Assembly (NCBI GenBank): GCA_031259095.1
Contig: JAIRLW010000315.1
Location: 1-10,148, forward strand
Direction of reading: 5' to 3'
Source: Planctomycetaceae bacterium
Lineage (GTDB): Bacteria > Planctomycetota > Planctomycetia > Pirellulales > Thermoguttaceae
DNA length: 10,148 nucleotides
A program made the translations under genes and the position numbers. The notes beneath the pieces are model-generated. The model was given only the letters and a program-made list of their open reading frames with translations. It ran no database searches and was not told the DNA's origin. Within the stretch, counting starts at the first letter, position 1. Every line of letters starts with the position of its first letter. Shown one piece after another: positions 3,241 through 9,868 of the stretch.

Positions 3241-6200
3241 CTATTTACCAATTCCTTCCGTATAACGAGTGAAACGGTCTTTGATCGCAGGCGGAGGAGT
3301 GAAACGTTGTGATTCTATAACTTTATTTTCGTCCTGAATTCCGGTTCGGGATTTTTGTAATTGTTGACGATTCTGAGCAGGTCGCAATCCAAGACTCTTA
3401 AACGCCTCTTTCCATCTGGCATCGTCGTTGGTTGCCGTCGATTCGGAACGCTTACTTTGTTCAGACATCTCACTCCATTTATGATGGAAATCACGGAGTT
3501 CCTGTTCCGACCAACCAAGATTGTCCAGAAGTTCCTGACTCGGTTTGGATTTCAATTGATCTTCAAGATAGTCCAAAACAAGATTCGTAATCTTTTTCGA
3601 ATATTCCAAATTCGCGTCTTCTGTCGGTGTTTCAACATTCAACGCCGATGGTCCCTGTCCGCCAACAGAATTACTTTGGGCGTCCGAACCAACCGAAGAA
3701 GACGGATTGTTTTCAGTTCCCAATGAAGAAGGTTGAGATTGATTGTTTTCCGTACTTTTTTTCATATTTCGTCCGATATTATTTTCTGTACCATTTTTTA
3801 TGTCGTTTTCCGCATTGTTTTGATTATTTGTACTATTTTTATCCTTTGCATTATTTTTATCGTTTGCGCTGTTTTCCGAAGCGGAATTTTGCAACGGTTT
3901 ATCTGATGGTTTGGTACCGGCTGCGGAATTTTTGCCTTCAAGCAAACCGGAACGATTGGATTTATCTTGGTCGGAATTGCCGGATTCGCCGGAATCCGAT
4001 TCGTTTGATTGTTTTGTTTCCTGTTGATCGCCGACGGATTGAGCGTTTTTCGTTGTGCTGTTTTGTTTTTCAACTCTGTTTCCATTTTTGTTATCAGATT
4101 TATTGCCGGACATTCCTTGTTCAGTGGATTGCGTTTGATTACTTCGTTCTTGTTGTCTTGTTTCCCGACCATTTCCATCATTACCGTCGGTAACAGAATC
4201 ATTCGCTCTATCAACATCAGACTTTTTCGGTTTATTCGAATCACCGCCTTGATTGGAGCGTTCAGTTGAATTTGGATCAAGCGAATCGTCACGTTGGCGA
4301 GGCGTTTTGTCTGCCGGATCAACCGGAACATCCCGACGTTGTTGTTCGGATTTTGAATTATTCCCTTGATTTCCCGAAGATTCCGAAACAGAATCACTTT
4401 GCTGATTACCTCCGTTGCCGCCGTTAGTTGGTTCACTGTTTTTCGTATCGGTTTGATTTGAATGATTCGGTTGGGAAGTGTTCTGTTGGGAATCAGATTC
4501 TCCTTGTTTTTCTGAACGTTGTTTTTCAACATCTTGCTTTTCTGAACCTTGCTTTTCCGAACCTTGTTTTCCAGTATCTTGCTTTTCCGAATCTTGTTCA
4601 TTTTGTTGTTGTTGTTGTTCAGATTGAGAATCCGGCGTGGAATTTGCCGGTTTTGAATCGGTTCGATTTTCCTCGCCTTTCTGATTTTGACTTTGATTTT
4701 GATTTTGTTCATTATCATTTCGTTGCTCATTATTCTGTTGCTCACGATTCTGTTCGTTGTTATTTTGGTTGCGATTCTGATTGTTATTGTTTTGATTATC
4801 ATTTTTATCGCTATTATTATTATTATCGTTCAATTTTTTATCATCAAACTTACCTTCCTTTTTCATTTGTTTCAAAATTTCCTCTATCGCGTCACCGTCC
4901 TGAGTTTCAGGATTGATTGGTTTTTTTGAAACATTACTCTGCCGATCACTCTTTTGAGATGAATCACCTTGTTTCTTCCGAACCGATTGATTCGAATTTT
5001 CTTTGCCGTTTTGTTCTCCTTGCTTTCCGTTGTCGGAAGAATTATTGTTATAGGAATTATTTTTTAAGGAATCATTATTTTTTTGTTCCGAATGTTCCTT
5101 GTCGGGATTGTTTTGATTTGAATCATTTTGGTTGTTGTTGTTGTTGTTGTTCCCGACTGAATTTTCATCAGCGTTTGGAGATTCCGAAGTATTGGAATTT
5201 TCCTGTTGAGTAGATTCTTGCGTTTGTTCCGTTCTGTTTTGATCGTTTCGGGAATGATCTGATTTTTGTTGCTCCTCGTTTTCTCCATTGTTTTCTCTAT
5301 TTTCTCTGTTGTTTTCTGGTTTCTGCCGTTTGTTTGCTTGTTGTTCCTTATTTTGTTCATTGCTATTTTGTTCCTCCTTATTTTGTTGCGTATTGTTTTG
5401 TTGTTCTTTTTTTTCTTGTTCCGATTTCTCTTTTGGCGGTTGTTCCTGTTTTTGCGGCGCAACAATTTGTACCGTAATTCGCCGAGTTGTTGCGTTATTG
5501 GGATCGGGGAATTTTGTATCGACTGCTTCCGCCCAAATTTCAGCGGTATCGCCTTCCGCGAGCCGACTGGTGATTGGCGAAAAAATCGCCTTACGTTGAA
5601 TCGAACCTTTATGCTCTGTTGCTCCGGTTGCCGGAGATTCCAACAGTTCAACGGGACGAATTTGCTTGTTACCGGATTCGACGCGGAACCGAAGATAACG
5701 CAAACCGAAATCACGATCTTCCGCTTGAATCGGTAATTCCAATGAATTATTGAGCGGTAAATCTAATTGGGCGACCTCTTTTAATCGCGTATCGGTATCC
5801 GCCCACTGAACCATTGGCGGTTGATCCGGCAACACTTCGAGCCGGAAAACACCGCTTCGACGATTTTCATAACCTTCCTGATCGGTTGCCCGAAACGAAA
5901 AATTCCGAATCGTTGTTGGAGTGTTACGTTGCGGATCGAGTTTTAGCGTGATGGTTGCGGCTGCTTCGGTCGGATTTTCGTCCGCAATTTTCATTCCGAC
6001 CGTTCTAAGCGGATCATTATCAAACACAAGATCAATCCGTTGTAACGGAATCGTGCTGCGCACGCCGATTTTAACCTCCGTTCCTTCAACGGCACGAATA
6101 TCGCCGGTATTTTCGACGATTTTTTCCGGCAATCCGGTGTAAGGCGGAAAGCGGTATCTTAGTGAAACGATTTCGATGGCTGCGGTCGGACGCACCTTGA

Positions 6201-7101
6201 TTCTAAACGTTCCGCTTCGGCTGTCGTTTTGGGCAATCCAGTAATCGACGCCGCTAGCGAATCCTTGTTTTCCCGGCGGAAACGGAACTTCATACCGTGT
6301 CTTCCCTTCCGGCAACGACATTGGGATTGCCTGCCGAACCGCTTGACCGTCATCGGTGGAAAAGAAAAGATAAACCGGTTCCTTGTTCCGACTAACAACT
6401 TCGGCGGAAATCGTAAGTTTTTCACCTTGCAGCGCAACAGTATTTCCGGGTTCAACGTTCAGAAAACGCACCGCTTGCGGTTTTTCGATTTTACTGATGG
6501 GCAAGATAATTCGGGTCAATGACGTCAACGGACTTTTAGGCGAAAACGTTGCGTAAATGACAAAGAACAGAAAACAGAGTGTCAGGGCAATTCCCCACCG
6601 TGTTACATTTCGTAAATCGACGGCACGTTCAGAAGAAATCACTGTGACCTTGGACACGGCGGTTTGAGTAACGCCGTCGAATATCCGTTCCGATAATTTA
6701 TCACGGTTACATTCTTCCTGTTCGAGCCGTTCTTTACGCAACAGAATCCAATTAACGATGGAATTTTTGAGCGACGGACTGCTTTCTTCCAATAAACTTG
6801 CCGCATAAACTGGATTAATCGGATAAAGCAAAAGCGGGACAATCCGCCGATAAACGTAAAACACAATAATGAAAACAAGAATCCCAAAAACGCCAAGCCG
6901 TAAGGAGATGGACAAACCATCTGTGAAAAGCCAGTGATCGGCAAGAATCGCCGCGAACAAGACGGCAAGTAACATGGTTAAGAGTGAGAAAAACGACAAC
7001 GAAAAATCAATTTGTCGGATAAAACGTCGAGTTTCATCAATTTGCCGATCCAATGTTTCATTGGGATTTTCGGCGATTATTTTTGCGGTATTCATACTCA
7101 T
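3241..7101 (-). CDS. DUF4175-like membrane-anchored protein with a giant Asn/Gln-rich linker (1286 aa)
   Basis: Function unknown. Three hydrophobic helices at about 32-56, 67-92 and 168-187, with basic residues after the second (YRR), suggest an N-in topology that leaves residues 188-1286 outside the cytoplasm. Residues 200-548 are beta-rich, with repeats resembling Ig-like or DUF4175-type modules (RYRFPPYTG at 315-323; SFRATDQEGYENR at 402-414). Residues 551-1157 are low complexity, dominated by Asn, Gln, Ser, Lys, Asp and Glu. A tail (1158-1286) looks folded, including LVLDYLEDQL and LLDNLGWSEQELRDFHHKW. As I recall them, planctomycete relatives share this layout with much shorter Lys/Gln-rich linkers. 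Here the linker is unusually long and Asn-rich. The start at 7101 has no Shine-Dalgarno; an ATG two codons later is an alternative. The frame is intact throughout, so the linker is not a sign of decay. It appears to be transcribed alone, divergently from the SGNH hydrolase gene. Confidence 0.85.
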   Translation of the reverse strand: MSMNTAKIIAENPNETLDRQIDETRRFIRQIDFSLSFFSLLTMLLAVLFAAILADHWLFTDGLSISLRLGVFGILVFIIVFYVYRRIVPLLLYPINPVYAASLLEESSPSLKNSIVNWILLRKERLEQEECNRDKLSERIFDGVTQTAVSKVTVISSERAVDLRNVTRWGIALTLCFLFFVIYATFSPKSPLTSLTRIILPISKIEKPQAVRFLNVEPGNTVALQGEKLTISAEVVSRNKEPVYLFFSTDDGQAVRQAIPMSLPEGKTRYEVPFPPGKQGFASGVDYWIAQNDSRSGTFRIKVRPTAAIEIVSLRYRFPPYTGLPEKIVENTGDIRAVEGTEVKIGVRSTIPLQRIDLVFDNDPLRTVGMKIADENPTEAAATITLKLDPQRNTPTTIRNFSFRATDQEGYENRRSGVFRLEVLPDQPPMVQWADTDTRLKEVAQLDLPLNNSLELPIQAEDRDFGLRYLRFRVESGNKQIRPVELLESPATGATEHKGSIQRKAIFSPITSRLAEGDTAEIWAEAVDTKFPDPNNATTRRITVQIVAPQKQEQPPKEKSEQEKKEQQNNTQQNKEEQNSNEQNKEQQANKRQKPENNRENRENNGENEEQQKSDHSRNDQNRTEQTQESTQQENSNTSESPNADENSVGNNNNNNNQNDSNQNNPDKEHSEQKNNDSLKNNSYNNNSSDNGKQGEQNGKENSNQSVRKKQGDSSQKSDRQSNVSKKPINPETQDGDAIEEILKQMKKEGKFDDKKLNDNNNNSDKNDNQNNNNQNRNQNNNEQNREQQNNEQRNDNEQNQNQSQNQKGEENRTDSKPANSTPDSQSEQQQQQNEQDSEKQDTGKQGSEKQGSEKQDVEKQRSEKQGESDSQQNTSQPNHSNQTDTKNSEPTNGGNGGNQQSDSVSESSGNQGNNSKSEQQRRDVPVDPADKTPRQRDDSLDPNSTERSNQGGDSNKPKKSDVDRANDSVTDGNDGNGRETRQQERSNQTQSTEQGMSGNKSDNKNGNRVEKQNSTTKNAQSVGDQQETKQSNESDSGESGNSDQDKSNRSGLLEGKNSAAGTKPSDKPLQNSASENSANDKNNAKDKNSTNNQNNAENDIKNGTENNIGRNMKKSTENNQSQPSSLGTENNPSSSVGSDAQSNSVGGQGPSALNVETPTEDANLEYSKKITNLVLDYLEDQLKSKPSQELLDNLGWSEQELRDFHHKWSEMSEQSKRSESTATNDDARWKEAFKSLGLRPAQNRQQLQKSRTGIQDENKVIESQRFTPPPAIKDRFTRYTEGIGK
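3631..5451 (-). repeat. Asn/Gln-rich low-complexity coding region (residues 551-1157)
   Basis: About 607 residues with only one Tyr (684) and one Phe (752) and no Trp or Cys. Residues 761-800 contain 20 Asn and 8 Gln out of 40. A run of seven Asn (651-657; bases 5131-5151) and one of five Gln (829-833; near 4604-4619) are both AAC/ACA/CAA-type triplet tracts read in different registers, a sign of replication slippage. A short helix-like island, AIEEILKQMKKEGKFDDKK (738-756), interrupts it. The skewed composition removes stop codons from other frames, producing long spurious open frames on both strands. Confidence 0.85.
4498..4590 (-). repeat. Pentapeptide tandem repeat (SEKQG-like, six copies) within the linker
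   Basis: Residues 838-867 read SEKQD, TGKQG, SEKQG, SEKQD, VEKQR and SEKQG: a 15-bp DNA unit in six diverged copies. It is the only regular tandem repeat I see in the low-complexity region, and it probably changes in copy number between strains. Confidence 0.7.
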
Positions 7102-8932: not shown

Positions 8933-8977
8933 AGTAAAATATGTTGGCGATCAGGCAGCATTTGAGAATTAAGGTTT

Positions 8978-9868
8978 ATGACAAAAACTTTGTGGCATCC
9001 GGCATTTTGTGAAGCAATGAAACTCGAACTTCATGAGTATCGGGATGTGTTGGAGTTTCAAGATGAACATCAATTGACAAGCGGTTCGTTACGAATTGAT
9101 ACCCTGATTATCAAAAAACTCAAAAATATTGTTATCGATAAAGATATTGCCCGCATTTTTCGGAACTATAACATATTTGAATACAAAAGTCCCGATGATT
9201 CGCTCGATATTCACGATTATTACAAAACACACGCTTATAAATTGTTTTACTTTTTTCAGAATAAAATTAGTGATATTGACGATATTTCCGTAACAATAGT
9301 GGCTTCACAACATCCGTATAATTTGTTGAAATATCTGTCCAATCGTTACAAAGACAACATAACTTCCCCTCAAAAAGGTATTTATGTTGTCGATCACGAT
9401 ATGGGACCAACTCAAATAATCGTTTCAAGTAAGTTAGCGAAAGATAAAAATCTTTGGTTAACCCATTTAAATAAACAATTAACAGCTACACGATTACAAC
9501 GGCTTCTAACTGAAGCCGCAAAACATGGTAAAGACTCGGCGCTTGAGACTTACCTTGATGTGATCGCCGAAGCAAATTTCAAAACATTTCAGGAGGTAAT
9601 CATGGGAAAAGCAATTGATCGATGCTTAAAAGAACTCGGTCTTGTCGATAAATGGCGTGCCGAAGGCAGAGCTGAAGGGAAAACTGAAGGAGAAGCCAAA
9701 GGGGAAGCCAAAACGATTATCCGTATTTTATCGCGTCGTTTGGAACCGCCTTCGGCATCGCTTCAGAAAAAAATCAATTCGATTCGAAATATTGCTAAAC
9801 TTGATGAGTTGACCGATTTTGCTCTGACTTGTGTTTCGTTAGACGAATTTGCAACCGCTTTAAAGTGA
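8978..9868 (+). CDS. Rpn-like PD-(D/E)XK nuclease (full-length form, 296 aa)
   Basis: The N-terminal half fits the PD-(D/E)XK nuclease fold of the Rpn / 'putative transposase' families: SLRIDTLIIKK gives Asp41, and FEYKSPDD gives the E-x-K pair Glu68/Lys70, followed by a helix around DYYKTHAYKLFYFF (80-93). Residues 100-165 continue the nuclease domain (VTIVASQHP; GIYVVDHD). A helical linker leads to four-residue repeats (227-245) and a C-terminal DUF4351-like helical segment (246-296). In enterobacteria Rpn proteins are DNA endonucleases first linked to recombination and later shown to be toxin-antitoxin anti-phage systems; the same role here is inference. The start at 8978 has only AAGG three bases upstream, a weak site. 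An AGGAGG within the gene precedes an in-frame ATG at 9602. No IS ends surround it, so it is not itself an insertion sequence. Confidence 0.85.
   Translation: MTKTLWHPAFCEAMKLELHEYRDVLEFQDEHQLTSGSLRIDTLIIKKLKNIVIDKDIARIFRNYNIFEYKSPDDSLDIHDYYKTHAYKLFYFFQNKISDIDDISVTIVASQHPYNLLKYLSNRYKDNITSPQKGIYVVDHDMGPTQIIVSSKLAKDKNLWLTHLNKQLTATRLQRLLTEAAKHGKDSALETYLDVIAEANFKTFQEVIMGKAIDRCLKELGLVDKWRAEGRAEGKTEGEAKGEAKTIIRILSRRLEPPSASLQKKINSIRNIAKLDELTDFALTCVSLDEFATALK
9591..9596 (+). promoter_or_regulatory. Consensus internal ribosome binding site inside the Rpn-like gene
   Basis: AGGAGG, overlapping codons 205-206, sits 5 nt before the in-frame ATG at 9602. It is the strongest Shine-Dalgarno sequence I see in the window and is much better than the one at the annotated start of the same gene. 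Confidence 0.65.
9602..9868 (+). CDS. Candidate intragenic RpnS-type antitoxin (C-terminal 88 aa of the Rpn-like protein)
   Basis: Translation from the in-frame ATG at 9602 (Met209 of the long form) would give an 88-residue protein starting MGKAIDRCLKELGLVDKW, then RAEG/RAEG/KTEG/EAKG repeats, then a DUF4351-like helical tail. It lacks the nuclease domain. In characterised Rpn loci the separately translated C-terminal domain (RpnS) directly blocks the toxic full-length RpnL, and its helix carries four-residue repeats whose number varies among strains. The sequence shows the ATG, the strong ribosome binding site and the repeats; inhibition is inferred by analogy. I found no convincing internal promoter, so it may be translated from the same mRNA as the long form. 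The alternative is that AGGAGG arises by chance from the Gln-Glu-Val codons. Confidence 0.5.
   Translation: MGKAIDRCLKELGLVDKWRAEGRAEGKTEGEAKGEAKTIIRILSRRLEPPSASLQKKINSIRNIAKLDELTDFALTCVSLDEFATALK
9656..9712 (+). repeat. 12-bp coding repeats (tetrapeptide repeat of the Rpn-like protein)
   Basis: Residues 227-245 read RAEG, RAEG, KTEG, EAKG, EAK, a degenerate 12-bp unit. Related Rpn proteins carry similar variable-number four-residue repeats at the RpnS dimer interface. Confidence 0.75.

Follow-up and report, generated by a model that had tools for sequence, protein, structure and literature searches.

An internal start signal maintained in a planctomycete nuclease gene suggests an RpnL/RpnS-like two-product locus

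Does a single reading frame of a Planctomycetaceae bacterium encode both a nuclease and, from a start codon within the gene, the tail that would hold it in check? This question was raised by a gene in the first 10,148 nucleotides of contig JAIRLW010000315.1 (assembly GCA_031259095.1), the whole stretch of DNA that we analysed and that is called the window below. The model for such a locus is the RpnL/RpnS toxin-antitoxin system of Escherichia coli (PF04754, COG5464), whose mechanism was shown by mutation, binding and cleavage assays according to PMC10327210. The window locus resembles it by its PD-(D/E)XK-type head, by a variable C-terminal tail with an internal Shine-Dalgarno (SD) sequence and start, by four-residue repeats located 8-20 residues after this start, and by the stand-alone tails found near long genes. 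It differs from it in that no relation between the two heads could be detected, the tail is of the DUF4351 type and the window locus is known from sequence. The features of the locus are collected in Table 1.

Table 1. Coordinates of the features of the two-product candidate in the window
Feature	Position	Strand	Remark
Long form, 296-aa PD-(D/E)XK-type nuclease with DUF4351-like tail	8978..9868	+	ATG start, stop included
Weak ribosome binding region of the long form	8957..8977	+	-3.3 kcal/mol
D41 codon	9098..9100	+	invariant, 88-protein alignment
E68-x-K70 codons	9179..9187	+	invariant, 88-protein alignment
Internal Shine-Dalgarno AGGAGG	9591..9596	+	-11.6 kcal/mol, conserved among homologues
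Short form, 88 aa from internal ATG, same frame	9602..9868	+	stop included
Four-residue repeats, residues 227-245	9656..9712	+	inside predicted long helix 223-254

The initial annotation had read the long frame as a PD-(D/E)XK nuclease with residues D41, E68 and K70. We confirmed the open reading frame, and the three residues are unchanged in 88 out of 88 aligned proteins; the catalytic residues of an RpnL/RpnS-type system are present in the window protein. In six pairs of homologues, dN (0.07-0.15) was each time well below dS (0.44-0.79), and the protein is therefore maintained. The window protein scores 21.2 bits against DUF4351, under the Pfam cut-off of 25. A PDB sequence search with the whole protein returned no credible match (5 rows, best E-value 0.24), and PADLOC, whose library was run without an Rpn positive control, did not match it either.

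An AGGAGG placed 5 nt before an in-frame ATG, together with a weak ribosome binding site at the main start, had also been claimed for this gene, and both are present. The spacer TAATC separates the AGGAGG from the ATG, which is codon 209. The energy of the duplex with the anti-SD core is much lower at this internal start than at the long-form start (-11.6 vs. -3.3 kcal/mol), and the best of the 14 other in-frame ATG, GTG or TTG codons of the long form reaches only -4.1 kcal/mol. The M209 column is at least 90% conserved, with a methionine in 83 of the 88 proteins and, for the other five, within a few columns. The AGGAGG-N3-9-ATG pattern occurs once in the window against 0.14 expected. We rejected such single-site statistics as proof of an internal start: because at least one such site also appeared in 26 of 200 shuffles, the site taken by itself is no more than suggestive, and its weight comes from the homologues. 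A search for the 16S gene in the genome carrying the window found none; the anti-SD CCTCC is present in the 16S gene of one congener (L182), and the pattern was unmatched in another (L183). Several neighbouring genes of the window lack an SD at their listed starts.

The AGGAGG-ATG could be an unused by-product of the residues Gln-Glu-Val-x-Met, since Gln-Glu alone often encodes GGAG. We compared the junction between head and tail with a synonymous null, in which amino acids were fixed, codons were drawn by usage (1000 draws) and the best site was picked as in the observed sequences. The junction set comprised all non-rRNA loci with a head match reaching at least position 190 of the 202-position profile; junctions identical over 150 nt were counted once, which removed the duplicates between two collections and left 55 junctions. 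A methionine lies at most 24 residues from the end of the head in 54 of them. For these 54, the mean SD energy was -8.57 kcal/mol, vs. -3.93 (sd 0.32) under the null, and none of the 1000 draws reached the observed mean; taking the first methionine instead of the best one gave -7.67 vs. -3.43. This excess survived thinning to 33 heads with <60% identity and to 21 heads with <45% identity (0 of 1000 draws each), and 222 other internal methionines of the same genes, used as a control, displayed no excess (-2.04 vs. -1.88). The SD upstream of the junction methionine is thus stronger than the amino acids impose, which is the check that the initial annotation had proposed. The null does reach -5 kcal/mol in 30% of draws, and genes taken singly show a weak excess. 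In an earlier gene-wise test, 71 non-identical long genes had been kept from 116 loci, i.e. 48 with the window-type head, all used, and 23 others of at least 250 aa, 22 of them used. Only 13 of the 48 reached p < 0.05. The 22 genes with other heads (PF04754-type) showed a smaller excess (-8.74 vs. -6.15, sd 0.40), with p < 0.05 in two of them, and some PF04754-type genes of the window's own genome have weak internal sites (L129, -4.4; L132, -4.6 kcal/mol).

Homologues that keep this region and lose the SD or the methionine would argue against an internal start. Among the 55 junctions, the only departures were one weak SD (L083, -4.1 kcal/mol) and two genes, L072 and L173, with a valine at the site, written GTG. 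As a description of the best site per gene, all junctions but L083 have an SD of at least -5 kcal/mol strength (54 of 55), and when both codons are allowed, 53 of the 55 use ATG and the remaining 2 use GTG, with a spacing of 5-12 nt. Two codon phases are found for the SD core, in 39 and 16 genes, over residues such as FQEVI, LMETKN and LMEEYQ in one phase and KGEIK or IGENE in the other. Moreover, even when the best of all candidates was generously taken for the long form, its start was weaker than the internal one in 39 of 40 complete genes, the -5 kcal/mol level being reached by 4 of 40 long starts and by 39 of 40 internal starts. An SD with an in-frame start before the C-terminal domain, as in RpnL/RpnS-type genes, is a feature of the family. 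Judged from these comparisons, the internal start signal is under selection and persists across different protein contexts.

We then examined the stand-alone copies of the tail. Nine of them were compared, ungapped, with a long gene of the same genome (L074, L082 and L112 were left out); this long gene lies directly upstream in four cases (L066, L067, L085 and L115). For six of the nine (L064, L066, L067, L076, L085 and L108), similarity starts between 14 and about 32 nt upstream of the ATG, level with the SD or slightly above it, and no continuous similarity precedes this point. The two copies compared from L093 still carry the end of the head. In the L115 stand-alone frame (offset 735, minus strand), the SD is lost and the ATG follows the stop codon of the long gene by one base, an arrangement that translational coupling would predict. 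In the window's own genome, an 82% paralogue is followed by a decayed copy made of AGGAGGT, an ATG and about twenty matching codons, after which the sequences diverge. Since six headless copies would start at the internal site, they provide the strongest evidence in favour of a genuine start there.

We also built a tree of 68 tails, excluding 28 frames that were open at the start of a contig and counting tails identical within a genome once (which dropped the L066 stand-alone copy). Six times, this tree strongly supports the pairing of a stand-alone tail with a long gene of its own genome (L067, L070/L076, L080/L082, L085, L015/L064 and L089/L108); L115 pairs in the same way with lesser support. 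Among its 11 stand-alone frames, four carry the end of another head as judged by eye (L074, L112 and the two of L093), and that of L082 has no clear site. The downstream RpnS copies of E. coli likewise group with their parents (Zhong et al., PMC10327210). Tandem arrangements also occur: L093 is an array of three tail frames, one of them open at the contig start, and L054 holds two long genes in a row with the PF04754 region.

It is thus very improbable that the AGGAGG-ATG is an unused by-product of the encoded residues, given that the SD also lies over other residues and in another codon phase, that GTG is found where the methionine is lost and that stand-alone copies begin at the SD. Because the SD exceeds the null, recurs in varied contexts, is stronger than the long start and marks the beginning of stand-alone copies, it is well supported that one reading frame gives a long nuclease and a short tail.

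The four-residue repeats that had been noticed just inside the short product are indeed there: RAEG-RAEG-KTEG-EAKG-EAK begins 18 residues after M209, and a 12-nt tandem repeat lies at 9687-9712. This distance falls in the range of 8-20 residues known for RpnL/RpnS-type genes, and the number of repeats varies among relatives; the predicted short product measures 72-140 aa in the 35 genes with a complete DUF4351-like tail. The predicted full-length model is helical from residue 211. A PDB sequence search with the tail alignment found nothing credible (4 rows, best E-value 0.35), and the dimerising three-helix bundle 7TH0 was absent from the 50 structure matches listed, which hardly cover the tail. 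NCBIfam FliH matches in relatives were discarded as compositional; those seen in P0094 and P0107 span the charged repeats (residues 230-306). By a simple pattern, the repeat number of the long gene differs from that of the stand-alone copy in four of five pairs (L015/L064, L066, L067 and L070/L076, the pair of L085 agreeing). In E. coli, a single added repeat breaks inhibition, according to PMC10327210, and some stand-alone copies may therefore no longer serve their parent.

What would the two products do? We consider it probable that the locus is an RpnL/RpnS-like two-product gene, in which a weakly made nuclease is kept in check by a surplus of the 88-aa tail. The full frame would be translated at a low level from its weak start into a PD-(D/E)XK-type nuclease, and the strong internal SD and ATG would yield an excess of the tail, predicted to consist of a long repeat-bearing helix and a small helical bundle. 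The short tail would most likely bind its counterpart in the long form and keep the nuclease inactive; stress or phage infection would disturb this pairing and release the nuclease. For the window locus, we infer that both products are translated, that their tails bind each other, that the long form is toxic and inhibited by the short one, and that the pair acts against phages. A weak long start with a strong internal start fits a toxin held by an excess of antitoxin, as in E. coli RpnL/RpnS. The short product could also be real and act as a structural partner or assembly regulator instead of an antitoxin. PMC10327210 cites Cas11d as a partner subunit and PMC12707154 presents McrBS as a case of assembly control; in both Cas10d/Cas11d and McrB/McrBS, a defence gene gives rise to a C-terminal product through a start that lies in frame within it. 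These pairs bear no toxin-antitoxin relation, unlike what we propose for the window, and serve as an analogy only. Although such a role (cf. Cas11d-Cas10d, McrBS-McrC) would leave the same sequence marks and could accommodate the frequent differences in repeat number between parents and stand-alone copies, we regard it as unlikely: the tail is homologous to Rpn-type tails, antitoxin action being shown in E. coli for another tail type, and the relative strengths of the two starts fit an excess of inhibitor.

The initial annotation had also assigned the gene to a different nuclease family, an assignment that our comparisons bear out. None of the 88 family members matches the PF04754 (YhgA-like) head, which is matched by five of five genes with the other head. 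With hhalign, the probability was 0.4% between window-type heads and other heads (profile of 28 rows, PF04754 confirmed for 11), vs. 98% (E = 3.7e-14) between window-type tails and the tails of PF04754-type genes, E. coli tails being outside this comparison. TIGR01784 does not match the window protein; it matches 26 of the 88 relatives (E <= 0.01), and 2 of the 10 that were rescanned, at residues 187-300 and 242-282. Judged by its head, the window gene is not a PF04754 Rpn. The PF04754-type Rpn paralogues with DUF4351-like tails of the same genome and genus have a homologous tail and, in several cases, an internal SD and methionine; they differ by their head.

Mapping the two head types onto the tree of tails takes 12 and 16 changes, of which 5 and 9 are forced by well-supported branches; this speaks for repeated exchange of heads and tails. 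Several observations count against it. The tree is built on only 58 columns and leaves many forks unresolved, and the closest tail comes from a gene of the same head type for 32 of 35 genes with the window-type head and for 13 of 22 genes with the other. Moreover, the window's own genome offers no direct proof of exchange, the tails of its two types being at most 34% identical over the 58 residues compared. Since several relatives end in non-DUF4351 modules, the window-type head is not tied to a single kind of tail. We give an even chance to a broader scenario, in which the internal start and the DUF4351-like tail form a portable antitoxin cassette that was joined repeatedly to unrelated PD-(D/E)XK heads and copied out at its own SD as stand-alone antitoxins, with sets of long and short partners possibly cross-protecting or escaping one another.

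The probable planctomycete origin proposed at first agrees with the relatives, as eight of the nine relatives' loci in named genomes belong to Planctomycetaceae MAGs, bins that we take to come from termite guts. The ninth is in a Defluviitaleaceae MAG; L173 and L172 (G352), from this other phylum, keep a strong internal SD with other tails. The window's genome holds four genes with the window-type head (contigs C116, C406, C362 and C210), and PF04754, the head of Rpn proteins, matches it 12 times. The number of copies per genome is uncertain because many contigs stop within one of these genes, so that only a tail is left at the contig end (e.g. L048, L060, L068, L084 and L091 among congeners). 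Any part of the protein is matched in 22 of 60 genomes: its own, 19 of 20 congeners, 2 of 16 further members of the family and none of 23 from the order. Of 294 genomes across the phylum, 14 match, its own included; apart from its own genome, only G214 has near full-length matches, G181 matches a short stretch of the head and the rest match the second half. The distant genome G214 carries two facing copies of equal score (C78:2014-2844 and 3519-4349; L156 and L163), each with one in-frame TAA. On viral contigs, 16 pattern matches to alignment A1 were obtained and none was confirmed. No defence gene was detected around the locus in the window, and PADLOC, run without an Rpn positive control, did not match the four neighbours submitted. 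One neighbour (3241-7101, minus strand) is a 1286-aa open reading frame with a very long stretch rich in Asn, Gln, Glu, Ser and Lys and no Pfam match at E <= 0.001.

This distribution bears on whether a toxin-antitoxin unit would serve phage defence or rather selfish persistence or genome plasticity. Many copies per genome, a patchy spread that extends to a distant genome of the phylum and to Defluviitaleaceae, a decayed copy and the neighbourhood of the window could all suit a selfish unit. Defence genes are also patchy and mobile, however, and RpnP2 of E. coli protects against T-even phages according to PMC10327210; a selfish role is possible, and we hold it to be less likely than not.

Finally, the claim that the locus extends this architecture to a new family and a new phylum stands for the family, given the other head. 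The phylum is a smaller step, since PMC10327210 reports rpn genes in 34 bacterial phyla (Zhong et al. 2023) and an RpnS from Clostridioides difficile. As far as that article goes, the mechanism, the broad spread among phyla, the DUF4351 annotation of stand-alone RpnS genes and the stand-alone tails themselves were already known. In the open-access literature, the scope of our search (subscription work lying outside it), PMC10327210 was the only article retrieved on RpnL/RpnS, DUF4351 or intragenic antitoxins of this sort; it concerns Rpn genes, and we came across neither a non-Rpn head with the same internal unit nor copies beginning at the SD in it. What appears new is that a PD-(D/E)XK nuclease of another kind carries a putative RpnS-like cassette, and does so in a multi-copy lineage of Planctomycetaceae. 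The same kind of tail and start on a head with no recognisable link to that of Rpn suggest that the antitoxin unit, and not the nuclease, may be the conserved shared part. The stand-alone copies starting at the SD act as constructs made by nature, which point to the start, and the many copies of the lineage would allow partner specificity to be tested.
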